From a virus: a stretch of DNA of 28,586 nt. Where the stretch lies: IMG/VR virus record IMGVR_UViG_3300025122_000107, positions 1 to 28,586 of that record, one strand, 5' to 3'. The notes beneath the pieces were generated by a model that ran no database searches, had not been told where the DNA came from, and saw nothing but the letters and a program-made list of their open reading frames with translations. Made by a program: the position numbers and the translations under genes. Of the stretch, positions 5,437 through 20,474 are shown in pieces (position 1 is the stretch's first letter; every line of letters begins with the position of its first letter).

Positions 5437-6066
5437 TTACCAAGTTTCACCTAGGTTTTTACGTTTCATTGCCTCAATCCAAGATTTTGGATTTTCTTTT
5501 AATTTCATCTCTACCAGTTCCCAAGTCTCTTCACGGCCAGAACCCTTTCTAAGCCTAGACCAAAAATCAGAGTCTTTACCAACAGATCTGATGTCTGTCC
5601 ATGGTCCACCCCAATCTGTTTCTGTACCATCAGCTTCATAGGATTTAATATCTGTTTCTCCGCTTGATCTATAAATAAAGGCCTCTTGATTGTATTTTTG
5701 AGCTAATTCTTTTGTAAGTTCAAATAAGTCTACAGCTTCTTCTTTAAAAGGTCGATTTGGTACAAATATAGTGTCTTCAATAACTCTTTGTTTTCCTGTC
5801 TCTTCTCCTGTTTCAGGATTTCTAACTGTTTCAACATAAGACCCAACTAATGGAATATATCGATAGCCAGCATTTTTATAATCACTTCTTATCTGTTGAT
5901 ATCTTTCTTTATTTTCAGTGGTAGACTGTTCATGTCTATTTGCTGTAACAACAGCAAAACCGACTGGTTCTTTTAAATGTTTTTCTTTAAATCTTCCTAT
6001 TGATATTTCATCAATTAAATGTTTATGAACAACGTTTTTAATTTTATCTTTTGTGATTTTTGGCAT
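5437..6066 (-). CDS. Hypothetical 209-aa soluble protein (possibly DUF3293-like)
   Basis: The N-terminal half has a recognisable pattern: a strand GFAVVTANR, then a helix with TENKERYQQIRSDYKNAGY, then RYIPLVGSYVE, and later VIEDTIFVPN. This order (TA.R, N.....L..D, G..Y.P..G, then a strand) recalls the DUF3293 family, but I am not certain. The C-terminus is Trp-rich and charged. There is no signal or membrane segment, so it is probably cytoplasmic. The start codon ATG at 6066 overlaps the upstream stop by one base (TAATG) and has an AAGGAG site 8 nt upstream inside the co-chaperonin gene, so the pair is translationally coupled. Function unknown. Confidence 0.8.
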   Translation of the reverse strand: MPKITKDKIKNVVHKHLIDEISIGRFKEKHLKEPVGFAVVTANRHEQSTTENKERYQQIRSDYKNAGYRYIPLVGSYVETVRNPETGEETGKQRVIEDTIFVPNRPFKEEAVDLFELTKELAQKYNQEAFIYRSSGETDIKSYEADGTETDWGGPWTDIRSVGKDSDFWSRLRKGSGREETWELVEMKLKENPKSWIEAMKRKNLGETW

Positions 6067-6353
6067 TATGAGCGCTCCTTATTTGGCATAACGCCAAAAA
6101 TATGATTTTCTAATATTAAATGAAAAACAATATTATTAATTTCTATTTCTATTAACATATGTTTATCTATTATAATTAAGTCTTCGTTATTAAAATCTTG
6201 TTTACAATCTGGCGCTATTCGTAATATTTGCGCCAAACCATATCCATATTCTTTAGGTTTATAATCATCAGGAACTAAAATAGTTGATTTGTCTTCTTTT
6301 GTTTCTTCAACTAATTCTACCAATACATGACGATTTCTGGGATTAAATTTCAT
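6066..6353 (-). CDS. GroES/Cpn10-like co-chaperonin
   Basis: About 95 aa, the usual length for GroES. Co-chaperonins cap the GroEL chamber; phage versions such as T4 gp31 retune the host chaperonin for capsid protein folding. The pattern fits the Cpn10 barrel: an N-terminal strand NPRNRHVLVEL, a mobile-loop-like segment EETKEDKSTILVPDD whose TILV matches the GroEL-contacting IVL of GroES, then GLAQILRIAPD, and a final strand ILENHIFGVM. A longer frame from an ATG at 6389 exists, but it overlaps nrdJ and has no ribosome site, whereas the ATG at 6353 follows a perfect GGAGG with 6 nt spacing just after the nrdJ stop. No GroEL gene is visible, so it should work with the host chaperonin. Confidence 0.82.
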   Translation of the reverse strand: MKFNPRNRHVLVELVEETKEDKSTILVPDDYKPKEYGYGLAQILRIAPDCKQDFNNEDLIIIDKHMLIEIEINNIVFHLILENHIFGVMPNKERS

Positions 6354-6359
6354 TCTTTT

Positions 6360-6364
6360 CCTCC
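6360..6364 (-). promoter_or_regulatory. Strong Shine-Dalgarno deciding the GroES-like start
   Basis: GGAGG on the minus strand, 6 nt before the ATG at 6353 and directly after the nrdJ stop codon (6367-6369). It argues for the short 95-aa form over a 12-residue N-terminal extension. Confidence 0.8.
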
Positions 6365-6366
6365 AA

Positions 6367-8796
6367 TTATCCACATTTTGAGTATCCACAATTTTTACAA
6401 GTTATGCACCCATCTTGATAAATTAATCCTTCGCTTATGCACTCCGGACATGCTTTATCAGAAAGTGCTGCTTCCCCATCTTTAATATAAAGCTTAAGGA
6501 TTCTAGCTACACATCTTGCAAAGCTGAACATATCACTATCTTTGTCTTTCAATAGTTGCTCAACTAAAAAACTCGGTTTAGAACCATGACGCAAAGCTAA
6601 TGAAATCATCCTTGTGAAAGCAGAATTATTAGGGTTATCAAAAACTTTTACAATATCTCGTACGACAATTTCATCATTTTTTTCGCCACATTGTAAATCG
6701 TATCGATTATTTTTTGTTTTAAAATGATGTTTTGTTAAAATCCCTTTTGTATATTTCTTTGGAATTTCGATTAGATTCGACAACCCCCCTAAAATTTCAT
6801 ATGGCTTCTCATCAAAAAGGCCAACCAAAATTGTCCATTTTTCACCTTTAATTGTTGTGTGATGTACATCACATAGTAATTCTTTTGGCCTTTTAGGGGC
6901 TCCATTCTGTGGAAATCGATCTTTGCCCTTTGTTATTAGCACCCCGCTTCTTGAACCATCTACATAAACAGTGATGCCTTTAAGTCCTAATTTCCATCCT
7001 TTAAAATAAAGATCTCCAACAACGCTGTGTGGAGTATTCTTTGGAAGATTAATTGTTGAGCTTATTGCATGATCAATATGTTTTTGTATTGTAGCTTGTA
7101 TGTCCACCCTTTTAGACCATTCGATCTGATCGCTAGTGATAAAGAAGTCTGGAAGTGTTTGTTGTTCTTTATACGTTTCATGATTTAAATCAATCCATTC
7201 TTGAATATTGTGATGAAAAACTTCATATTCCATCCACTTATCACCAACTTCATCAATAAAGTCTGCTTTTAAGTGCTGTTCGTCGTGACTTAGTTTTCTC
7301 CGTCTAATATACATATTTCTAAAAACAGGTTCCAATCCTGAACTAGTTTGCGACATGATTGAAACCGAGCCTGTTGGGGCATTTGTTAGAATGGAGATGT
7401 TACGACGCCCAAGTCTGGAAATTTTTTCCCGCAAAATTTTTGGGAGTTTTGCAATAAAAAGATTATTTTCTTCTTTAGCCCAATCAAATAATGGAAATGC
7501 TCCTCTTTCTTCAGCTAAATTCACACTTTCTGTGTATGCCGACACTTTTAATGTTTTATAAATACGATTAACAATTTCTAAAGCGGGTTCTGAATCATAT
7601 GCCAAATTCAATCTCGCTAGCGCATCAGCTAAGCCATGTGTTCCTAAACCAGTTCTTCTACCATCGCGGCACGCGTCTAAAAGATTTCCCCATAACATTT
7701 TCTCATCTTTTGTGTCTGCAACTTTAATAATCTTTTCAAGTTTTTCAATTTCCAGTTCTACTAGATCGTCTGAAAGTCGCATTGCGCTTGTTGCCACTTC
7801 TTCAAATTTTTTAAAATCAAAAGAGGGCTTTTCTGTAAACGCTTTTTTAACGAAATGTTTTAAGTTAATAGAAATTAATCGACAACTATCATACGCAGAC
7901 AATGGAATTTCAGCACATGGGTTTGTTGAAATTGTTTTAAAACCGTCTTCTTCATAACAATCTGCTGGTAAATATTTTTTTATGTTGTCCCACATCAATA
8001 GTCCAGGCTCAGCAGTTTTTGTTGCAGACTCAACGATCAAATTCCAAAGATTTTTTGCTTTTATTGTTTTTGTACATGATGGACTGTCTGATTCAGTTGG
8101 AAATTGAAGTGTATACTCATTGTCATTCTCTACCGCGTTCATAAAATCATCAGTTACTTTTACAGAGATATTTGCACCAGTAATCTGTGTTAAATCGTGT
8201 TTCATTGTTATAAAGCGCTCAATATCAGGATGTCTAATATCCATTGTAATCATGAGGGCGCCTCTTCGTCCATTTTGGCCAACCATTCTACATATATAAG
8301 AATAAAAATCAGCAAAAGACCAAGCACCGGTAGTTGTTCCAGCTGAGTTATTAACTGATGTGTTCTCTGGACGCAAATTTGATATGTCCAATCCCACACC
8401 GCAACGTCGCTTAAAAAGGTTTGCTAAATCTTTTCCTGTGTCTATAATAGAAGACATGTTATCTTGAGGAGAGTCCACGACAACGCAATTTGATAGGGAA
8501 ACATTAACATGATCATTTCCAATCCCCATCATTGGCGACCCTTGAGGGACAATGTATGTAAAATTATTTAAATATTCATTTATCTGCTCAAATGACATGG
8601 CACGGGGGCCGCCGAACTTTTTTTCTATTCTTGCAAATTCCTTAGCAAGACGGGTATGCATTTCAGAAGGATCTTTTTCTAGAAAGTTTTTATTGTTGTC
8701 TTTTAAAGCATATTTAGTCATCCACACATTTGTAGCTAATGCATCTCCACTAAAATATTCTAATGCAGCACAATTAACCTTGTCTTCCGGATACAT
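6367..8796 (-). CDS. nrdJ: Adenosylcobalamin-dependent (class II) ribonucleoside-diphosphate reductase
   Basis: Makes deoxyribonucleotides from ribonucleotides using coenzyme B12, with no oxygen requirement and no small subunit. The 809-aa chain has the expected residues: redox cysteines at C104 (LSNCVVVD) and C305, with the radical cysteine C294 and its neighbours N292 and E296 in STNPCAEIPL. The 11-residue spacing from C294 to C305 is the classic one. The C-terminus carries a cysteine tail, CPEC then CKNCGYSKCG, as in bacterial NrdJ, used for re-reduction by thioredoxin. The start ATG at 8796 overlaps the end of the helicase gene by 23 nt, with an AAGGAG site inside it. It supplies dNTPs for the replication genes in the same run and implies a host that makes or imports cobalamin. 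Confidence 0.95.
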   Translation of the reverse strand: MYPEDKVNCAALEYFSGDALATNVWMTKYALKDNNKNFLEKDPSEMHTRLAKEFARIEKKFGGPRAMSFEQINEYLNNFTYIVPQGSPMMGIGNDHVNVSLSNCVVVDSPQDNMSSIIDTGKDLANLFKRRCGVGLDISNLRPENTSVNNSAGTTTGAWSFADFYSYICRMVGQNGRRGALMITMDIRHPDIERFITMKHDLTQITGANISVKVTDDFMNAVENDNEYTLQFPTESDSPSCTKTIKAKNLWNLIVESATKTAEPGLLMWDNIKKYLPADCYEEDGFKTISTNPCAEIPLSAYDSCRLISINLKHFVKKAFTEKPSFDFKKFEEVATSAMRLSDDLVELEIEKLEKIIKVADTKDEKMLWGNLLDACRDGRRTGLGTHGLADALARLNLAYDSEPALEIVNRIYKTLKVSAYTESVNLAEERGAFPLFDWAKEENNLFIAKLPKILREKISRLGRRNISILTNAPTGSVSIMSQTSSGLEPVFRNMYIRRRKLSHDEQHLKADFIDEVGDKWMEYEVFHHNIQEWIDLNHETYKEQQTLPDFFITSDQIEWSKRVDIQATIQKHIDHAISSTINLPKNTPHSVVGDLYFKGWKLGLKGITVYVDGSRSGVLITKGKDRFPQNGAPKRPKELLCDVHHTTIKGEKWTILVGLFDEKPYEILGGLSNLIEIPKKYTKGILTKHHFKTKNNRYDLQCGEKNDEIVVRDIVKVFDNPNNSAFTRMISLALRHGSKPSFLVEQLLKDKDSDMFSFARCVARILKLYIKDGEAALSDKACPECISEGLIYQDGCITCKNCGYSKCG

Positions 8797-10162
8797 CTTT
8801 CTTCTCCTTCCTAAAGTTCTTATATCTCTCTTTTAATGCTTTTGCTTGATCTTGAGCAGATTTTGCCATAATTTCTTCAGGGGTTTCACCGTTAGATGGA
8901 AAAACTTTAATGTCAACATTGCCAGTATTCATAAAAATTGGATACACCTGTCCATCTTGTCCATTTCGATTCTTAGCAATGAAAATACGGCCAGTGTTGG
9001 TATTCTTATCCTCTGCAGTGCGGGAAACTGAAAAAATAAAGTCTGCTACAAAGCATTTATTAAAAGCTTCTGAAATTGATGCCATGGTAATCACTTCTGC
9101 GTTTAAGCCTGAACGGTTTGTTTGACTTGCTGTCCAACACGGACAATTGTTCTCTTGCGCAATGGCGCGAAGGTCTTCATAAATAGATTCTAGTTCCATT
9201 CTTTTCTCTTTTAAAAAAGAGATTGGTCGTAAAAGATCTGCATAGTCTACAATAATCATATCTGGTGTGATACCGCGCTGTTTAAGCTTTGCTAGATGTG
9301 TTCTTATGGTATTTGTAGATGCGCTTTTTGTAGGATATTCTTTAATTATTAGGTGTCCTTTAACATTCTTAACTGATTCATAAATTAAATCTTTATACTG
9401 TGATAGTTCTCCTAATGAAACTCCTGTAATACAACTGTCATATCGTGAAGCAATTATTGTTTCTTGAAGCTCTAGAGTATAATGTACAACCGTTTTACCT
9501 AATTTGACCGCTTCCGCGCCTAAGTGTACAAGAACCATACTTTTCCCTACACCAGTCGGTGATATGACGACTCCTAATTCTCCTTTGCCCATCCCTCCTT
9601 TACAAATATTATCAATTTCTTTCCAGCCAGATGTTATTGGGTTTCTTGCTTTAAATTCAAAACGCTTTTCAAAATCTTTTACATAATCATGTCCATAATC
9701 ATTTGCTATTCCTAAATGCATAGAATCATTAATTAACTTTTGGATTTCATCAAATGATGATCTTTGTAATAGATCAACTGATTTTAATATTGCTCTTTTA
9801 AGTGTTTGTTTCCTACAAAAATCTATGGCAGTATCTTGTATATAATTTACATCTTTTACTTCGGTGGCGATCATACGAGCAAAAAAATCTCGAACTTGTT
9901 TTTGAACTAGTTCATTTTCATTATTTAATCCTGCTCTTACAATGGATTTCATTATTTCTATAGAAGGGTGCGTTTTATACTTCTCTTTGTACTCCTTAAT
10001 TTTATAAACAAAGACCTGTAGATATTTTAATTCTAAAAAATTTATATCGAGGACTTCATATATCCGATCTGCAAATTCTATGTCTTGTAAAATAAGTTGA
10101 CATAAATTTTCTTGAAAATCTTTTCCAAATTTTGAAAAATCTGTTTTTTCATTTGAATTCAT
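8774..10162 (-). CDS. Replicative DNA helicase, DnaB/T4 gp41 type (SF4)
   Basis: A ring helicase that unwinds DNA ahead of the polymerase. The 462-aa chain has an all-helical N-terminal domain (about residues 10-150, DnaB_N-like) and a RecA-type motor: Walker A SPTGVGKS at 201-208, Walker B MIIVDYADLL with Asp306, and a conserved Gln-Thr motif TASQTNRS, followed by GRIFIAKNRNGQDG with the arginine-finger region. Length matches DnaB/gp41. It starts with ATG at 10162, overlapping the stop of the small membrane gene by one base (TAATG) without a strong ribosome site, so it is coupled. No separate primase is seen in the window. Confidence 0.93.
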   Translation of the reverse strand: MNSNEKTDFSKFGKDFQENLCQLILQDIEFADRIYEVLDINFLELKYLQVFVYKIKEYKEKYKTHPSIEIMKSIVRAGLNNENELVQKQVRDFFARMIATEVKDVNYIQDTAIDFCRKQTLKRAILKSVDLLQRSSFDEIQKLINDSMHLGIANDYGHDYVKDFEKRFEFKARNPITSGWKEIDNICKGGMGKGELGVVISPTGVGKSMVLVHLGAEAVKLGKTVVHYTLELQETIIASRYDSCITGVSLGELSQYKDLIYESVKNVKGHLIIKEYPTKSASTNTIRTHLAKLKQRGITPDMIIVDYADLLRPISFLKEKRMELESIYEDLRAIAQENNCPCWTASQTNRSGLNAEVITMASISEAFNKCFVADFIFSVSRTAEDKNTNTGRIFIAKNRNGQDGQVYPIFMNTGNVDIKVFPSNGETPEEIMAKSAQDQAKALKERYKNFRKEKKDVSGRQG

Positions 10163-11928: not shown

Positions 11929-13779
11929 TTACTCAATGATTTCAGCATCTAAAATATTCTCGTCTTCTTGACTCTGCTCTTCTGAGTTGTCTGTGCTACC
12001 CGCTTGCGCGTACGCTTTCTCTGCTAAAGAATGCATTATTGTTTCTAAAGATTTTAACATAGCATTAATCGCATTTTTGTCTTCAGAATTTACTAGTTTT
12101 TTAGCATCTTCCAATTTAGACTTAATGTCATTGTCATCAATCTTTAATGTCTCAACGGTAGATTCAATCTGAAAAACCATAGAGTCCAGTAGATTTCTTA
12201 GCTCAACCAATTCGCGTTTTTCTTTGTCCTTTGCTCCATGGACTTTAGCTTCTTCAATCATTTTATCGATTTCGTTGCTTGATAATCCGCTTGAATCCGT
12301 AATGGTAATCGAGTGATCTTTACCAGTTGCCTTATCCTTAGCCGAAACCTTTAAAATACCATTCGCATCAATATCAAAAGTTACTTCAACTTGAGGAATG
12401 CCGCGAGGAGCGGGTGGAATATTACCTAATTGAAATTGACCCAATGTGCGATTGTCTGTTGCCATTTCACGCTCACCTTGCAAAACATGAACATCAACAG
12501 CATTTTGATTATTAACTGCAGTTGAAAATATCTCTGATTTGCGTGTCGGGATAGTGCTATTGCGCTCAATAAGTCGTGTTGTAACACCACCTAAAGTTTC
12601 TATCCCTAAACTTAAGGGCGTAACATCCAACAAGAGTACATCTTTTACATCACCAGAAAGGACTCCACCTTGTACAGCGGCACCCAATGCTACTACCTCA
12701 TCTGGATTTACACCTTGATTTGGTTTCTTATTAAAAAAGTTTGTTACTGCTTCTACGACTTTAGGAATTCGAGTAGAACCGCCAACCAATACAATTTGAT
12801 CAATGTCTTTTATTTGGACTTTAGCATCTTTAATTGCCTGTTTGCACGATGCAAATGTTTTTTTAATAAGACTGTCAGTCAATTGATCAAATTTTGCACG
12901 GCTAATCGTCAAATTTAAATGCTTAGGTCCCGCGGAGTCCGCGGTCAAAAATGGTAAATTAACATTAGTTTCGTGTGCTGAACTTAGTTCAATTTTAGCT
13001 TTTTCTGCAGCCTCGCGAATCCGCTGAAGAACCATTTTGTCATCTGATATATCGATACCAGTTTCTGATTTAAATTCTTTCGTGACATGATCAATTAATA
13101 CCTCGTCGATATTGTCACCGCCTAAATGCGTATTTCCTGAAGTTGCCAGGACCTCAACAACGCTCTCCCCAACTTCTAAAATAGATACATCAAAGGTTCC
13201 CCCCCCAAAGTCATATACTGCAATTATCTCATCATTGTTTTTGTCTAAACCATAGGCTAAAGCTGCAGCAGTAGGCTCATTAATGATTCGTCGCACTTCT
13301 AAACCTGCGATTTTACCGGCGTCTTTTGTTGCTTGACGCTGACTGTCATTAAAGTAGGCAGGAACAGTAATCACTGCTTCTTTTACCTCTTCTCCCAAAA
13401 ATGTTTCTGCTGCTTTTTTAAGTTTTTGTAATACTTTTGCACTAATTTCCTGCGGAAAATAAGTTTTTTCATCAATCTGTACGGCGGTGCCACCGGTGTC
13501 TGAATTTATAATGTTGAATGATACCTTTTCTGCAGAATCTTTGATTTCATTTAATTCAGAACCAATAAACCTTTTAATAGAATATAGAGTTCTGTTGGGA
13601 TTAACGACTGCTTGTCGTTTTGCAGTAATACCAACTAAAGTTTCTTTATCAGTAAACGCTACAACTGAAGGAGTCGTACGATTGCCTTCTTCGTTAACAA
13701 TAATAGTTGGTTTTCCGCCCTCCATTACAGCTACACATGAATTTGTTGTACCTAAATCAATTCCAATAATTTTTCCCAT
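11929..13779 (-). CDS. dnaK: Hsp70 chaperone DnaK, full length
   Basis: An ATP-driven chaperone that binds exposed hydrophobic stretches of proteins. The 616-aa chain is a complete bacterial Hsp70: phosphate loop [10 protein letters not shown] at 5-14, [37 protein letters not shown], then the interdomain linker [15 protein letters not shown], the beta-sandwich substrate domain with QGERE, and a helical lid. The tail is acidic ([17 protein letters not shown]), close to the DAEFEEV type of bacterial DnaK. Start: ATG at 13779 with an AAGGA site. It is flanked by tRNA-Arg on one side and a 59-aa lipoprotein gene on the other, all in one leftward run. No dnaJ or grpE is seen, so host cofactors would be needed. 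By eye it is somewhat richer in G+C than its neighbours, as expected for a conserved or transferred gene. Confidence 0.97.
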
Positions 13780-14118: not shown

Positions 14119-14138
14119 GTTTTTTTATAAAAAAACTT
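14117..14138. repeat. Perfect 22-bp palindrome over the exonuclease stop codon
   Basis: AAGTTTTTTTA followed by its exact reverse complement TAAAAAAACTT. It spans the last codons and stop of the exonuclease gene and touches the -35 box of the next promoter. It may form a weak hairpin in RNA or be an operator. Confidence 0.55.
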
Positions 14139-15111
14139 CTTTATTGTCAACAACAATTTTTTTATATAGAGAAAATAAACTATCCCAATTAAAGACTCCA
14201 AAGCCATCCTTGATCATCTTGACATGAACTGCAGTTTGGTTAAATTCATATTCAAAAGTTTTAAGAATATTGTTAATTTTTTGTTTTGTTTGCACACTAA
14301 TAAGTGGTACATATAGTTGCATTATTTTATAATTTTTTTCAATAACTTCTTTGTTTTCTAAAATATTTCTATGGGCCTGTAAAGGGTTTTCAACAGATTT
14401 ACAAAAATCTAAAACATCATCAATAGTGTATGTTTTTTCCTCACTCAGAAATTTAAATCGTTTCATCATTGTGGGCATCCCAACACCAGGAACTCCCAAA
14501 AGATTATCTGATTTATCTCCAACAATTGCCCGGGCCAAAGCAAAGTTTGTTGGATGTATACCATGTTTATCAACAAGACGACTTGTGTTTAATATCTCTT
14601 TCTGAATTGGCCTAAAAACAATAGTCTCTTTATCACATAGTTGATAAAAATCTTTATCTGAACTTACAATAATCTTTTGAATCCCTTTCAATAGTGGAGC
14701 TTGTGTAATGTGCGCGATTATATCATCTGCTTCAATGCTTGGCTCCATAAATTGGATTAAAGGCATGTCATTAAGATATTCAATTAGTCTCGTCTGTTGC
14801 CAGATCTTATTTTGGATTTCTTCATTAGCTGTTAGATTTTTTATATCACGGTTTAAACGAATAGGTTTACGGCCTTCTTTATAATTTTTATTATAGCTTT
14901 TTCTTTTTTGTGATCCACCCGCTCCATCCCAAACAATAATAATACTATCTGGTTTAATGTCTCGGGTTAGTTTTTGAAGAATTTTAAGAAATCCTTTCAA
15001 CCCACCTATAGGTTCGCCATTTGTTGATAAACTAGGGTCAACAATGTATGCTCTATAATACATGTTGAGAGCATCAACCACCAAAAGTCTTTTCTTTTTT
15101 TTATTTTGCAC
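14125..15111 (-). CDS. 5'-3' exonuclease / flap nuclease (T4 RNase H, Pol I N-terminal type)
   Basis: Removes RNA primers and 5' flaps from DNA. The 328-aa chain has the metal-binding acids of the family: Asp13 (VVDALN), Asp62 (VWDG), Glu and Asp at 127-130 (EADD), Asp152 and Asp154 (SSDKDF), and Asp199 and Asp202 (GDKSDN), followed by the DNA-binding helix-hairpin GVPGVGMPT. There is no polymerase domain. The start is a GTG at 15111; it has no clear ribosome site and lies 14 nt after the uvsX stop, and no ATG in this frame would keep the first motif. Together with the separate polymerase gene at 18014-19210 it makes up the parts of a Pol I. Confidence 0.92.
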   Translation of the reverse strand: MQNKKKKRLLVVDALNMYYRAYIVDPSLSTNGEPIGGLKGFLKILQKLTRDIKPDSIIIVWDGAGGSQKRKSYNKNYKEGRKPIRLNRDIKNLTANEEIQNKIWQQTRLIEYLNDMPLIQFMEPSIEADDIIAHITQAPLLKGIQKIIVSSDKDFYQLCDKETIVFRPIQKEILNTSRLVDKHGIHPTNFALARAIVGDKSDNLLGVPGVGMPTMMKRFKFLSEEKTYTIDDVLDFCKSVENPLQAHRNILENKEVIEKNYKIMQLYVPLISVQTKQKINNILKTFEYEFNQTAVHVKMIKDGFGVFNWDSLFSLYKKIVVDNKEVFL

Positions 15112-15125
15112 GGTACTATGGATTA

Positions 15126-16232
15126 TTATTCAGAGTCCTCATAAAAATCAGATGCATCACCAGTTCGTTCATCAAACTTCATAATGATTTCTTCATCCAT
15201 AACTTCTAAAACTCGTTCTCTGAATTTAGGATTCTGAATTTTTTCTTTCCACCCAGATGATTGAAATTTTTCACTTGTGTCGTCAGCGTATTTAAGTGTA
15301 AACCAAGCACCACTGTTGGATAAATGTTTTGAACTTTTGATTGCGTCCAACCAGCTTTCTTCGTCTTGTACACCGACGCCTTCGCCCCATAAAATCTTAA
15401 AATTACATTGTCTGCCTTGTGTTCCAAAACGAGATTTCTCAAGTTTCACTTTTACCTCGGAACCAATTCTATATCCTTTGTCATCTGTAACAAAAGAAGC
15501 CTTAGCTTTACGCCCTGTAAGCCACACACGCAGCGAATAAGCATAAATCATAGCTTTGCCACCAGGAGTCATATAAGGTGTAGTCAAGGCTTCTGAGACG
15601 TTGCGTGTAATGTTTGTTTTAAGTTGGTTCAAAACTAAAAACGTTGATTGACTGTTCGCGATTGGGACTGTGAGTTTTGACATTCCTTTTGCAAGAATTC
15701 GTGCTTTAACCGCCATCGAAGAAAGAGGGTTAAAATCTCCTTCAACGTCTGACACCGATGGTGTAAGCGCTAATGAATCCCAAATAAATAACATCCGATT
15801 TTCATTCGAACTGAGAAGATCTTCGATTGTTTCTAGTACAAATTCAACTGATGTCGCTTGCACATAAAGAAGATTCTCTATTTTGCAACCCGCTTTTTCT
15901 AAAAAGCTTGGGTCAATTGCGGACTCCGAATCAAAATAAATTACATCAATGCCCATCTTTTGTGCGTTTGCAGCAACTTGGGCAGCTAAAAATGATTTGC
16001 CAGTTGACTCTAAACCTGCAATCTCAACAATTTTACCTAACGGTATGCCTGCTAATTTCCCACGACAAACTATTGAGTCTAACCAACGACTTCCTGTTGG
16101 AATCCAATCCTTAACTGTTGTCGGATTATCTTCATTAAGGTTATGAGCAACGTTTATTCCAGCTTTCTTATTTATTAAGTTACGCATATCAGCTACTGAA
16201 AGCTTACCTACTCTTGTTTTAACAGATCTCAT
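15126..16232 (-). CDS. uvsX: RecA/UvsX-type recombinase
   Basis: Forms filaments on single-stranded DNA and drives strand exchange for repair and recombination-dependent replication. The 368-aa chain has Walker A GLESTGKS at 73-80 (RecA: GPESSGKT), the catalytic Glu in YFDSESAIDP, Walker B FIWDSL with Asp152, and the DNA-binding loop and switch region VLNQLKTNITRN, with TPGGKA after it. The length matches UvsX/RecA. The C-terminus is acidic. Start: ATG at 16232 with GAGG about 5 nt upstream. It follows the ssb terminator directly, so it depends on read-through or an unseen promoter. It probably works with the gp32-like protein upstream; a UvsY-type loader is not visible. Confidence 0.93.
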   Translation of the reverse strand: MRSVKTRVGKLSVADMRNLINKKAGINVAHNLNEDNPTTVKDWIPTGSRWLDSIVCRGKLAGIPLGKIVEIAGLESTGKSFLAAQVAANAQKMGIDVIYFDSESAIDPSFLEKAGCKIENLLYVQATSVEFVLETIEDLLSSNENRMLFIWDSLALTPSVSDVEGDFNPLSSMAVKARILAKGMSKLTVPIANSQSTFLVLNQLKTNITRNVSEALTTPYMTPGGKAMIYAYSLRVWLTGRKAKASFVTDDKGYRIGSEVKVKLEKSRFGTQGRQCNFKILWGEGVGVQDEESWLDAIKSSKHLSNSGAWFTLKYADDTSEKFQSSGWKEKIQNPKFRERVLEVMDEEIIMKFDERTGDASDFYEDSE

Positions 16233-16301: not shown

Positions 16302-17066
16302 TTATGCCTCAAGCAATTCAGCAAAGGCTGTGCCAACAGCATCGTCTGATTTGTTCTCGCCTGAATCATTATACTTAACGGACTCAGATGATACCTCTTC
16401 GATAACAGAATCATCTAAAAGATAATCATCCAGAATCGCTTGAACTTCCTGTGTCGTTTTTCGATTTTTCGCAAACATTGTATCTAAATCGGGAACGGTT
16501 TCCAGAAGTTCGCGGCACCTTTCCGGGCCGTCTTGGCAAAGCGAGGAACTTTGTCGGCGGGGGGTAATGTTTGTAACCGGATAAGTTGCCCCTGCGGGCT
16601 TTCCATAAACAAGAACAAGATCTGTTCCAGAGTCAGGGTCTGTAATATCACCATATTCTGGATTGAGCATCAAATTCAAAAGTTTTTCATAAACTTGTTT
16701 TCCAAATCCCCAAACGCGTACGCCTTGATCTTCTTCGCCGCGTACAACAACTGGTGCAAAAAATCGTTGTCGAGCAGAAAGCTTCTTTGCCATCTTTTTG
16801 CTTTCTTCAGTTCCTTCGTTCCATAGTTGATGGACAAATTCACCTAATGGGCAATCTTCGCCAAAATTTTTCTTTGGGCTAAGAAATCCCGGATTTTTTC
16901 CAACGTTATAATGGAACCAATAATCCTTAAATGGATCTCCATTTTCTGATGGACAAATTCGAATTGCGGACTCGCCCTCTGGTGGCTTCCAAAATCGGCT
17001 CGAACCATTATTTTTGTTTTGTAAAGTAGTTAATCGCTCTCGCATTTTCTTCAAATCTAAACTCAT
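16302..17066 (-). CDS. Single-stranded DNA-binding protein, T4 gp32-like
   Basis: Coats single-stranded DNA during replication and recombination. The 254-aa chain starts with a basic helical segment (KKMRERLTTLQ), as in the gp32 cooperativity domain, and has an aromatic-rich core: FWKPPEGESAIRICPS, YWFHYNVG, CPLGEFVHQLW, ARQRFFAPVVVRGEED, and VWGFGKQVYEKLL. A long acidic tail rich in Asp, Glu and Ser follows, ending FAELLEA, as expected for protein-protein contacts. It has a strong promoter, a 60-70-nt leader and a terminator of its own, so it should be made in large amounts. Start: ATG at 17066, AAGGA with 9 nt spacing. Family fit is clear by pattern; zinc binding is not evident. Confidence 0.88.
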   Translation of the reverse strand: MSLDLKKMRERLTTLQNKNNGSSRFWKPPEGESAIRICPSENGDPFKDYWFHYNVGKNPGFLSPKKNFGEDCPLGEFVHQLWNEGTEESKKMAKKLSARQRFFAPVVVRGEEDQGVRVWGFGKQVYEKLLNLMLNPEYGDITDPDSGTDLVLVYGKPAGATYPVTNITPRRQSSSLCQDGPERCRELLETVPDLDTMFAKNRKTTQEVQAILDDYLLDDSVIEEVSSESVKYNDSGENKSDDAVGTAFAELLEA

Positions 17067-17133: not shown

Positions 17134-17162
17134 AATATACCATTAAATAAATATGTTGTCAA
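17134..17162 (-). promoter_or_regulatory. Strong sigma70-like promoter of ssb
   Basis: Minus strand: -35 TTGACA at 17162-17157, 17-nt spacer ending TGG, -10 TATATT at 17139-17134. It overlaps the last codons of the tubulin-like gene. It is the closest to consensus of the promoters in the window. Confidence 0.75.
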
Positions 17163-18010
17163 GCAATTATTTCATTTTTTTGCACAACAGAACTATGAAC
17201 AACTACATAAGCATAATTCTCTTTATAATCTGTTGAAAAAATACCATACGACAACTTAAATCTTTCGTCTTCGGTATTTCCTTTATGTCGTACTTGCTCT
17301 TTGATCATTTTAAATAATTTTTCATCTGTTTCCAGTGTGTTTTGTGGTATTGCATAATAATAACATTTATTACGAGAATGTTTAAGGTCAAAAAACAATT
17401 TTTCTTCTCCATTCTTAATGTCTAATAGACCAATAGTTGATATGCGAGCTACAGCGTTTGGTTCTGAGCGGATATCAACGACAGGTTCTGAATTATTAAA
17501 AACGCTTATCATATGATAGGTTGAAACAATCAAATCATTTAAATTTTCATAGTAATTTAGAACCGATGTTCCCCCTAAAATACTTTCTAGCGCAACATTA
17601 TGCACTACATATATTCTATTAAAAAGTAAAGATCTGGCATATTCCTGCAAAACTCCAAAAAGAACATTTTCTTGTAATCTTTTAGTTTCGTTTAAAAGCA
17701 ACAAATCTGGTTTTATATATAAAATGTTAATATTACATTTCTTTTTATGCAGTTGTTCTAGAGCACATAAAGAAATTCCACTAACAAACCCACAACTAGT
17801 TATGAATAAGACATCCCCTTTTATCTTTTTAAAAAAAGTTTTAAAATTTGGGCAATGTTTCTCATAATCTTCCGGGTTATTTCGTTTTTCTAATTTAAAA
17901 CAACCTTTGCCCTCTATCTCAACATCAATTTTAAATATATTATATTGAGGATATTGCTTAAATTTTTCAGCAATAGCACAACCCGCCTGTCCTATTCCAA
18001 CCACGTTCAT
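17159..18010 (-). CDS. Divergent tubulin/FtsZ-superfamily protein
   Basis: A 283-aa protein whose whole layout follows the FtsZ/tubulin GTPase domain. Residues 1-11 read MNVVGIGQAGC, like the first nucleotide loop of FtsZ/TubZ. GDVLFITSCGFVSG at 65-78 matches the strand and loop of the tubulin signature (usually GGGTGTG), but with most glycines replaced. ILYIKPDLLLLNETKRLQE at about 96-114 matches the VTKPF....R strand and helix, VVHNVALESIL matches IPND.LL, and the helix NDLIVSTYHMI is followed by VVDIRSEPNAVARISTIG, the position of the catalytic T7 loop. It could polymerise and position DNA or organise the infected cell, as PhuZ does, or be a non-hydrolysing relative. It sits 3 nt after polA and right before the ssb promoter. 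The fold suggestion is by pattern only. Confidence 0.6.
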   Translation of the reverse strand: MNVVGIGQAGCAIAEKFKQYPQYNIFKIDVEIEGKGCFKLEKRNNPEDYEKHCPNFKTFFKKIKGDVLFITSCGFVSGISLCALEQLHKKKCNINILYIKPDLLLLNETKRLQENVLFGVLQEYARSLLFNRIYVVHNVALESILGGTSVLNYYENLNDLIVSTYHMISVFNNSEPVVDIRSEPNAVARISTIGLLDIKNGEEKLFFDLKHSRNKCYYYAIPQNTLETDEKLFKMIKEQVRHKGNTEDERFKLSYGIFSTDYKENYAYVVVHSSVVQKNEIIA

Positions 18011-18013
18011 TAT

Positions 18014-19210
18014 TTAAATGTTAAACCTTTCCATACTACCAAAATCTTTTCCCGCGCTTGAAGATATTTTAAATTTACCTAATTTAGTATCCATTAAAAT
18101 TTTCTTCAACTCTGGTAAAATGTTCTTCTCTGACTCTGAAAAATCAATTACTAGACTATCATGGATTAGAAGAGAAATAAAGGATTTTTTATTTTTTAAT
18201 AACTCATGTACCTTAATTGCTTGTCTTAAAAATAAATCTGCAAACGTGCTCTGAATGATATAATTTAAAGCATGATGTTTGTCAGCTTCAATCTTTCTAT
18301 CATAAATTGTTCGAACGTGTGTGCCATCCCAATATTTTTGTAATAATAAATCTCTATCATAAGACCGTGAAGAGAGATAGTCTTTTGATTCTGGGTTATA
18401 TAACCAAGCAAATATCCTTTTCTTCGCTTTTTCCCGGGTACCAACACCCCTGTAAACATGCTTTAAATTCCATTCATGCAAATCTTCTTGTGGTTGTTCT
18501 TTATCTAAAAGCGCAAGCATCACACGAAGCTCTGCAGCATTATAATCAAACTCAATAAATAAATCGTTTTGTGGTTTAAGCACTGAGCGATAATTTTTAT
18601 TCATTGTCAATGCTGGAAAACTATTTTTAATTGTAGAAAGTCTTCCTGTTTTTGTGCCAAAAATATTATATTTTATGTGTGGCTCTATCTTGTTTATTTT
18701 TTGAATAAAATTTCTAACTTCTAATTTATGTCTTTGGGTCTTTAGTTCCGAAAGATCTATATTTAATTTTTTATACTTAATGTCTGTAACTAGTTTTGTC
18801 AAAGAAACTAAAAAATTATAATTTACTGGCCTCTTGTAGTTTTTAAAAATATAATTTGTTATCTTATTCTTGATTACACAATATTCTATAATGAAGTGTT
18901 CTGGGATTAATTCATAAAAACAATATTTGTTTAAATCTAATTGGGCTTCTCTTGCCGAACGATAGAAAGCTTTTAATTTATTAAAAACCGGCAGCCATTC
19001 TGTTTCTAAATGTTTAGGACATGCTTGATCTAATGATTTCCCTTCACAAAATAGTTTAGCATATTCAACTTCTTCAATATCTTTTAAAAAAACAGAATAG
19101 TCCCAAGTTGTAGAAAGGTTTGTTTTTGGGATTTTGTTAAAAACTAATTTATTATTAATATATACAGCAATACATTCTGATTTATCATCAATAGTCTGAA
19201 ACAGCGCCAC
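18014..19210 (-). CDS. Family A DNA polymerase, polymerase domain only
   Basis: About 398 aa. It has the conserved core in order: TGRLS, motif A LFIEFDYNAAELRVML (Asp222), motif B with the exact R-x3-K-x3-F-x3-Y spacing at 259/263/267/271, a QSTFADL helix, and motif C LLIHDSLVID (Asp351). In motif C the usual Glu after the Asp is Ser. There is no 3'-5' or 5'-3' exonuclease domain; the latter is encoded separately at 14125-15111. A longer open frame reaches 19276 but is only overlap with the upstream gene. I chose GTG at 19210, which has GGAGG 5 nt upstream and gives a 23-nt overlap. It follows the virion genes and is 3 nt before the tubulin-like gene. Confidence 0.88.
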   Translation of the reverse strand: MALFQTIDDKSECIAVYINNKLVFNKIPKTNLSTTWDYSVFLKDIEEVEYAKLFCEGKSLDQACPKHLETEWLPVFNKLKAFYRSAREAQLDLNKYCFYELIPEHFIIEYCVIKNKITNYIFKNYKRPVNYNFLVSLTKLVTDIKYKKLNIDLSELKTQRHKLEVRNFIQKINKIEPHIKYNIFGTKTGRLSTIKNSFPALTMNKNYRSVLKPQNDLFIEFDYNAAELRVMLALLDKEQPQEDLHEWNLKHVYRGVGTREKAKKRIFAWLYNPESKDYLSSRSYDRDLLLQKYWDGTHVRTIYDRKIEADKHHALNYIIQSTFADLFLRQAIKVHELLKNKKSFISLLIHDSLVIDFSESEKNILPELKKILMDTKLGKFKISSSAGKDFGSMERFNI

Positions 19211-20474
19211 CGGCACCTCCAATTGGACTAGTCCCCATTGTATTGGATGGGGATTTAGAAGTCCCTTTTTTCCCACTCACTCCTGCAACACCACCAATCA
19301 TTCCTTTGGTTCGTAACTGTTCGCTGATCCAATGTTGTTTCATCACATCATTAATATACGTTATTGCGGTGTCAAAGTCAAACATTAAATTAATTTTTTT
19401 TGCTTTTTTAACTATACTGTGAAAATGTTTCTCTGATATCGGAGCCTTACTTTCTTTTGCGCGGATTGACGCATAAGTCTTTATCCAAAAAACAGAACTA
19501 TAATTTTTTTCATAGTCTTCTATTAAAAGTGGCTCCCTGAAATCAGTGAAAACATTAGGTTTTTTCCCTACAATATATTTTGAAGATGTCAATCCTGCTG
19601 ATACAGCAGGTTTGTTAGGACAATCAACATATTCTTGTACCATGGGATACTCTTCTATAAACGTCGTGTAGAAGTTAAAAAAGTAATTTTTTAATAGCCC
19701 AATGTCATCCAAATGCGTAGGGTAAAAAACTTTTGAGAATACATTTTCAAAAGAAACACCATGTGGTGCCATGTATGCTTGCATTTTAGGAGACTTTAAA
19801 TCAGCTATTAATCTCCATGGAATATATTTATCTATTTTAAACCCAAACGCTTCTGCCGCTGTCCTATAAAAATTAAAATGTGGGTCTTTTAAAAACCGAT
19901 CTCTTTTAGCAGAATCATTATAATCAATCTTTTCAATTTCAACCGCTAATCCGGTTGATAAAATAGAATTTAAATATGATAGTGTATAGCCAGTTTTTGT
20001 TATAGGTATGCGACTAATAACCATGTTTAAATGTTCCAAAAAAATTGGTAAAAAACTTTCGAATGATTTCATCTTATCTTTGCTTCGCAAAAAATATGTA
20101 TCTGCTTTAATAACAAATGTCGTATAAATTTCCTTTAATATAGCATCATAAGCGTGATTTATGTCAACATATCCTTTTCTAGGGTTAAGATTATAAAAGG
20201 TTGAATGTTTAGAAGTTATTTTTTTCCTTAAAAAAGCTCTTAAATCGTTAAATGCTTCTGCAACAAAATCAATTGCAAAATATTTTTGGCCCGGACCAGT
20301 AGTTTTGAGCATGCCAAGCAGCCAGCCTTCTGCTGTGTTTATTGTATTTAAATATAAGTCTACTCTTCCATAATAAAGTCTTTCATACCAGAAGTCAAAA
20401 GGAGTTTTTCCTGAAGAAGGGTATCCTTTGTCTTTATATGTTTTTTGTTTTTTATATGTTTCAGCAATTGACAT
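19188..20474 (-). CDS. Probable virion structural protein, 428 aa
   Basis: I do not know a named family, but the segments IPWRLIADLKSPKMQAYM, a helical pair with LKNYFFNFYTTFI, and SVFWIKTYASIRAKESK recall structural proteins of large marine myoviruses (memory, not checked). The C-terminal 50 residues are Gly/Ser/Ala-rich and look disordered. There is no enzyme motif or membrane segment. Start: ATG at 20474 with an AGGA site, 12 nt after the upstream stop. It is the last gene of the tail block, placed after the 935-aa hub-like protein, so a baseplate or neck role is the most likely. Its last 23 nt overlap the polymerase gene. Confidence 0.75.
   Translation of the reverse strand: MSIAETYKKQKTYKDKGYPSSGKTPFDFWYERLYYGRVDLYLNTINTAEGWLLGMLKTTGPGQKYFAIDFVAEAFNDLRAFLRKKITSKHSTFYNLNPRKGYVDINHAYDAILKEIYTTFVIKADTYFLRSKDKMKSFESFLPIFLEHLNMVISRIPITKTGYTLSYLNSILSTGLAVEIEKIDYNDSAKRDRFLKDPHFNFYRTAAEAFGFKIDKYIPWRLIADLKSPKMQAYMAPHGVSFENVFSKVFYPTHLDDIGLLKNYFFNFYTTFIEEYPMVQEYVDCPNKPAVSAGLTSSKYIVGKKPNVFTDFREPLLIEDYEKNYSSVFWIKTYASIRAKESKAPISEKHFHSIVKKAKKINLMFDFDTAITYINDVMKQHWISEQLRTKGMIGGVAGVSGKKGTSKSPSNTMGTSPIGGAGGAVSDY

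Follow-up and report, generated by a model that had tools for sequence, protein, structure and literature searches.

Judged by its predicted fold, a compact phage protein that escapes sequence searches represents a new family within the tubulin/FtsZ superfamily, and synteny shows that its gene has a fixed place in the replication operon across a large clade of uncultured, Far-T4-like phages. The family, which we call TUB, appears to have kept the nucleotide pocket, while the parts used for catalysis and polymer formation are gone. So far, tubulins of phages have been described chiefly from jumbo phages that form a nucleus, plus a few plasmid-like elements, and in these they are accessory. Our results open to testing the idea that tubulin-fold proteins can be replication factors, and they indicate how far the superfamily can shed its hallmarks and yet stay conserved. 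An earlier note on this DNA had both the fold and the setting right. The one gene on which that note was based could not reveal how widespread the feature is, nor how much it has been altered.

The gene and its predicted fold

The window, that is, the whole stretch of DNA that was analyzed, is a 28,586-nt fragment from an uncultured virus (IMGVR_UViG_3300025122_000107). The earlier note had placed a 283-residue tubulin/FtsZ-like gene at positions 17159-18010, and the ends of the open reading frame match exactly. A single frame of 283 codons runs on the minus strand from an ATG at 18010 to 17159, and the plus strand across the same interval is rich in stops (Table 1). Library searches gave no match over threshold in Pfam, PHROGs, NCBIfam, or PDB sequences, and Pfam models PF00091 and PF12327 matched nothing in the window, compared to 13 of 14 control genomes with matches. 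Likewise, tblastn against 50,697 phage records revealed no relative. Matches in Gordonia (E about 0.6) covered only 42 residues and were dismissed as chance, and phiKZ-like phages were absent from the matches at E 10. Scattered sub-threshold matches to TrkA_N and dehydrogenases were also set aside, as they reflect GxGxxG alone.

Relatives were found among the uncultured viruses of IMG/VR, with 52 stretches recovered from a single-sequence query and at least 566 from an alignment query. Given this number of homologous stretches and the invariant position of the gene within them, TUB is far beyond chance. When 84,980 species genomes were searched, one match was obtained, in a candidate WOR-3 chromosome (CP070664.1, locus L135, 2241201-2262037). 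We rejected it as evidence of a host, as it lies on a phage piece of ~5 kb with N runs on either side, and this fragment is likely a scaffolding chimera in a public genome.

The tubulin fold consists of a Rossmann-like GTPase domain, a core helix (H7), and a C-terminal domain. An AlphaFold2 model of the window protein, built with 29 homologues, had a mean pLDDT of 92.5 and a pTM of 0.91. In a Foldseek search of the PDB with this model, TubZ and FtsZ led the matches (E 2e-12 to 1e-10, probability 1.00), with TM values of up to 0.73. VIA ranked CetZ best (Z 24.5, 3.0 Å, 258 residues), followed by TubZ (Z 23.4 over 276 residues) and by FtsZ and beta-tubulin (Z about 22), and its matches span residues 1-283. 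A second member, L046, is ~35% identical to the window protein. When modeled separately, it reached a pLDDT of 93.8 with the order of elements unchanged, and VIA gave Z 23.5 with CetZ and 21.9 with FtsZ. Both models thus have a predicted two-domain tubulin fold, with VIA Z of 20-24 over 250-278 residues for CetZ, TubZ, FtsZ, and tubulin. This was the AlphaFold and Foldseek check that the earlier note had proposed, and it returned the tubulin/FtsZ/TubZ/CetZ fold; no different Rossmann-like family, the outcome that would have counted against the claim, occurred among the Foldseek and VIA matches listed. PhuZ was not among the 50 VIA matches listed, which carries no weight against kinship.

Similarity to FtsZ is also detectable between sequence profiles, even though single-sequence library searches fail. 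With hhalign, a profile of 77 TUB members scored 35.1 against 29 FtsZ sequences, with 157 collinear columns covering residues 3-167. The controls fell below this value: 100 column shuffles reached at most 28.0, the reversed profile 16.2, an epimerase set 17.9 against the TUB family, and eight other phage families no more than 20.7 against FtsZ. For comparison, PhuZ scores 36.2 against the same 29 FtsZ sequences. Because two models agree and the hhalign score exceeds all controls, we regard membership in the tubulin superfamily as secure at the level of the predicted fold and as supported in sequence. The likeness to tubulin and FtsZ claimed in the earlier note therefore extends to the predicted fold of the whole chain.

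Table 1. Coordinates of TUB, its sequence elements, and neighboring genes in the window
Feature	Coordinates	Strand	Basis
TUB, tubulin/FtsZ-superfamily gene, 283 aa (predicted fold)	17159..18010	(-)	ORF, AlphaFold, Foldseek/VIA fold, IMG/VR homologues
T1 nucleotide loop, residues 5-14, GIGQAGCAIA	17969..17998	(-)	102 homologues
T4 signature-loop position, residues 72-80, SCGFVSGIS	17771..17797	(-)	hhalign to FtsZ GGGTGTG
Hallmark QEYARS, residues 122-127, H5 end before S6	17630..17647	(-)	conservation in homologues
T6 asparagine N138, putative guanine/ribose contact position	17597..17599	(-)	102/102; aligns with FtsZ IPN
H7 start, residues 152-158, NYYENLN, putative guanine contact position	17537..17557	(-)	N158 102/102; aligns with FtsZ AND
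H7 end, residues 166-169, HMIS	17504..17515	(-)	H166 102/102; position 169 N/S
T7/H8 region, residues 173-188	17447..17494	(-)	shortened loop, no H8, no conserved acid (DSSP, both models)
Short family A DNA polymerase (polA)	18014..19276	(-)	Pfam DNA_pol_A E 7e-16
gp32-type SSB	16302..17066	(-)	Pfam gp32 E 1.6e-14
UvsX/RecA-like recombinase	15126..16232	(-)	PHROG 97 E 7e-55
5'-3' exonuclease, encoded apart from PolA	14125..15111	(-)	Pfam 5_3_exonuc_N E 2e-27
DnaB-like replicative helicase, end of replication module	8774..10162	(-)	PHROG 19 E 4e-71
Large ORF	6367-8796	same strand	read as ribonucleotide reductase from its sequence

A conserved pocket and a possibly rebuilt face

Conservation across 102 homologues is concentrated first in the nucleotide pocket. 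The nucleotide loop GxGxAGC (residues 5-11) is nearly invariant (G5 98%, G7 100%, G10 98%, C11 95%), and KP at residues 100-101 is also conserved. Furthermore, hhalign sets N138 (S6 end) and N158 (H7 start) on residues of FtsZ that contact guanine. In FtsZ and tubulin these two asparagine positions contact the base, and in TUB both are present in all 102 homologues. The T4 and T5 nucleotide contacts are weakened, and for this reason the pocket might be empty or hold another ligand. Nevertheless, the conservation pattern suggests that TUB likely binds a guanine nucleotide.

The catalytic elements are a different matter. The signature-loop position reads TSCGFVSG (residues 71-78), with a family consensus of (S/G)(S/C/A)Gx(I/V)SGA, and the canonical GGGTG(T/S)G was found in none of the 101 members scanned. 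The glycines of the FtsZ T3 loop are missing. At T7 there is no conserved acid, with Asp or Glu reaching at most 55% at any position, and N-x-D-x-x-D occurs in 0/101 members, compared to N-x-DFAD in 23/29 control FtsZ sequences. Helices H8 and H9 are absent from both AlphaFold models (the window protein and L046), in which H7 ends at residue 172 and a loop then leads directly into strand S7. The TUB family is thus predicted to lack both the catalytic T7 acid and H8. In protofilaments of tubulin, FtsZ, and phiKZ TubZ, the interface is made of T7, the base of H8, and S9, and the catalytic Asp sits in T7 (PMC3678025). With T7, H8, and GGGTGTG lost, TUB is unlikely to hydrolyze GTP or to build protofilaments in the canonical manner, and sequence and predicted structure together indicate that this chemistry has very likely been abandoned. 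These observations agree with what the earlier note had described in one protein. The order of elements (GxGxAGC, TSCGFVSG, KP, N138, N158) is conserved across the 102 homologues, the change from GGGTGTG to TSCGFVSG is seen in the hhalign alignment and family-wide, and the T7 acid pattern, which had been called weak, is depleted more strongly than claimed.

A second set of conserved residues lies outside the pocket. H166 has the top conservation score of the whole protein, and the most conserved non-pocket residues also include Y23, Q122, Y124, R126, S127, Y20, Q22, and M167. Within the hallmark QEYARS, Q122, R126, and S127 are at 100% and Y124 is at 98%. The tubulin fold has a parallel sheet with the nucleotide loops T1-T6 at the C-terminal ends of the strands. 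By this known topology, the ends of H1 (Y23), H5 (QEYARS), and H7 (H166) are predicted to lie on the face opposite the nucleotide, beside the T7 position. The loop after H4 and the T7/H8 stretch are not conserved (z -0.53 and -0.54, respectively). Because the ends of H1, H5, and H7 are invariant while these stretches vary, a different invariant patch seems to have taken the place of the old catalytic interface.

A fixed place in the replication operon

The neighbors named in the earlier note, polA and ssb, do flank TUB, and in the window 3 nt separate the polA stop from the TUB start. This arrangement is general. All 202 loci with a recognized TUB are co-oriented in the order polA-TUB-gp32-uvsX. 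Where the preceding gene could be identified, it is polA in 189 of 191 loci, and the following gene is gp32 in 186/187. The median spacing between polA and TUB is -4 nt, with overlap or a distance within 10 nt in 137/189 loci, which suggests translational coupling. With polA as bait, TUB was present in 79 of 80 loci; the exception ends 463 bases past polA, leaving 79/79 informative loci, a count that is biased toward the clade since the polA profile was built from TUB-linked polymerases. Each of twelve long carrier contigs (71-204 kb) contains exactly one copy. TUB diverges at about the same rate as polA (median identity 44% vs 47%), and the adjacent baseplate-side genes diverge far more (28%). 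The operon position is evidence of co-expression, not of physical interaction.

Several other features of the window were recorded. One upstream gene matches a T4-type baseplate wedge family. A 428-aa protein (19188-20474, minus strand), found just upstream of polA in related loci with 29% median identity, is probably a baseplate component. The listed polA start overlaps the upstream gene, and homologues suggest a start further in. The functions of DNA polymerase I are split between the separate exonuclease and the short polymerase, which has no 3'-5' exonuclease domain and is strongly diverged from the polymerases of cultured phages. Between exonuclease and helicase lies a full-length dnaK/Hsp70 gene (11929-13779, minus strand, 616 aa, Pfam E 2e-245). 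The flanks of related loci showed no homologue of this gene, which suggests an acquisition peculiar to this phage. Beside the ribonucleotide reductase lies a small GroES-like frame (6066-6389, minus strand) with homologues in eight related loci.

The carriers form a large set of T4-like bacterial viruses that are uncultured and, for the most part, marine. T4-type gp23 was identified in five of seven long carriers examined. When one of these gp23 sequences was searched, its nearest cultured relatives were Flavobacterium phage immuto and Microcystis phage Mel-JY01, then Rhodothermus phage RM378, with cyanophages ranking behind all three. The gp23 neighborhood of immuto, Mel-JY01, and RM378 is that of the Far-T4 group (PMC4360716), whose hosts have been predicted to be Bacteroidota/Flavobacteriales (PMC7198788, PMC13037479); the main texts of these three papers make no mention of tubulin or FtsZ. 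Judged by gp23, which is T4-type in five long carriers and was placed by search in one, the carriers belong with the Far-T4 phages. Placement of the window itself rests on operon synteny, as 28.6 kb is too short to hold gp23. In addition, a single-sequence query with phiKZ chimallin gave no match in ten carrier contigs, which may be incomplete. With T4-type gp23 in the long carriers and no chimallin homologue found in these ten contigs, the contrast with nucleus-forming phages drawn in the earlier note appears to stand.

TUB is diagnostic of one clade and not of all Far-T4-like phages. A profile search found it absent from RM378, immuto, Mel-JY01, and LR756508. In immuto, polA and ssb are separated by two small genes; the idea that these are split halves of TUB was rejected. 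Using gp32 as bait and Mel-JY01 as reference, we found a sister lineage of 80 IMG/VR loci in which gp32-uvsX-exo-DnaB occur in the same order without TUB. In the 19 of these loci with polA in view, the interval between polA and gp32 holds 1-5 kb of variable cargo; the genes seen at the TUB site (L317, L330, L292, L319, and others) are epimerase-like, methyltransferase-like, or unknown. Since the sister lineage and the cultured relatives run a homologous operon without TUB, the gene is not a general requirement of such a replisome. TUB also provides a genetic marker, and a way into function, for those Far-T4-like phages that infect marine bacteria.

Possible roles and known relatives

The reading that we favor, with confidence evenly balanced, is that TUB is a noncanonical, guanine-nucleotide-binding protein of the tubulin superfamily that organizes or tethers the phage replication center. 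GTP or GDP would most likely be bound through the T1 loop, N138, and N158. With the signature, the glycine-rich T3, the T7 acid, and H8 lost, hydrolysis would probably be poor or nonexistent, and canonical protofilaments would probably not be built. The invariant face could be a rebuilt contact, either for a partner made from the same message, PolA or SSB, or for the next subunit in a nondynamic assembly. Nucleotide-loaded TUB may then organize or tether the replication center, and on balance a role with PolA and SSB at such a center is probable. The suggestion in the earlier note of a nonhydrolyzing protein tied to replication fits both the loss of T7 and H8 and the position in the operon. 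More tentatively, and with less than even confidence, TUB might be a core part of the replisome or replication center that senses nucleotide without hydrolyzing it, with the old filament interface now serving as a partner-binding face. If true, one of the commonest groups of uncultured marine phages would be using a tubulin mainly for DNA replication and not for movement or division.

The complete predicted fold, including the C-terminal domain, and the conserved guanine pocket would also suit a dynamic PhuZ-like filament that polymerizes with GTP, positions phage DNA or capsids, and uses a catalytic geometry outside T7. In that case the H1/H5/H7 patch could provide a novel longitudinal contact in which R126 or H166 acts in trans, and phages do use tubulins in this way, as exemplified by PhuZ (PMC11724907). 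We nevertheless consider such a filament unlikely, given that the T7 acid, H8, H9, and GGGTGTG are missing family-wide and that the shell protein of the phage nucleus was not found in ten carriers by single-sequence search. PhuZ is, moreover, accessory and often lost, with one clade that makes up 24% of known chimalliviruses lacking it (PMC11724907), whereas TUB is fixed beside polA. It is quite improbable that TUB is an accessory subunit of PolA, whether for processivity, as a clamp-like part, or in the regulation of proofreading, with the tubulin fold as scaffold only. This would accord with the overlap or near-overlap with the polA stop, with a PolA of 390-420 aa that is a polymerase without a 3'-5' exonuclease domain, and with the similar evolutionary rates of the two genes, but PolA is equally short in cultured relatives without TUB (immuto, 441 aa; Mel-JY01, 408 aa), and the conserved guanine contacts would be left unexplained. 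Highly doubtful is a poison of host FtsZ that would cap or co-assemble with it and block cell division: TUB invariably sits in the replication operon and not with the variable genes for host takeover, and an anti-host factor that meets diverse hosts would not usually keep a patch invariant across its whole family, even if an FtsZ-like fold without T7 may resemble a filament cap and FtsZ-binding phage proteins such as T7 Gp0.4 exist (PMC13423816). The chance that TUB is no tubulin but a generic Rossmann NAD(P)- or nucleotide-binding protein sharing GxGxxG only is negligible, since the weak TrkA_N and dehydrogenase matches are set against a full-length two-domain tubulin fold predicted for two divergent members, no Rossmann families among the top structural matches, and hhalign scores of 17.9 for epimerases and 35.1 for FtsZ.

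CetZ of archaea (3zid, 4b45, 4b46) is the best structural match and shares the two-domain fold and a T1 loop of GxGQAG, but identity is 12-16%. CetZ retains GGGTGTG and the T7 acids, which TUB lacks along with H8 and H9. TubZ of Bacillus plasmids (4ei7, 2xka), the top Foldseek match, is likewise encoded on mobile DNA. TubZ acts in partition with the DNA-binding adaptor TubR, and no TubR-like partner was seen in a fixed place near TUB, which differs from Bacillus TubZ in its lytic-type replication operon and is about 100 aa shorter. PhuZ and phiKZ TubZ are phage-encoded proteins with the same fold, although matches in the Foldseek viral library were weak (E about 1e-6, TM 0.5). PhuZ as closest relative was rejected, as hhalign gave a background-level score of 19.1 (probability 0.7%). 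PhuZ also belongs to another phage group than the TUB carriers with their T4-type gp23, and it is an accessory protein with a T7 Asp, in contrast to TUB, which is fixed in its clade without that residue. FtsZ shares the collinear profile match over residues 3-167 and a VIA Z of 22, but TUB is without GGGTGTG, the T3 glycines, NxDFAD, and H8/H9, and is not in a cell division operon. Finally, FtsZl1 and FtsZl2 are remote families of the superfamily that, like TUB, were recognized by profile and context, and FtsZl1 also misses canonical filament parts (PMC2875224). Unlike TUB, both are cellular, membrane-linked, and keep the GGGTG(S/T)G loop, and FtsZl1 has no recognizable T6-H7 (PMC2875224), the segment that is the best kept part of TUB.
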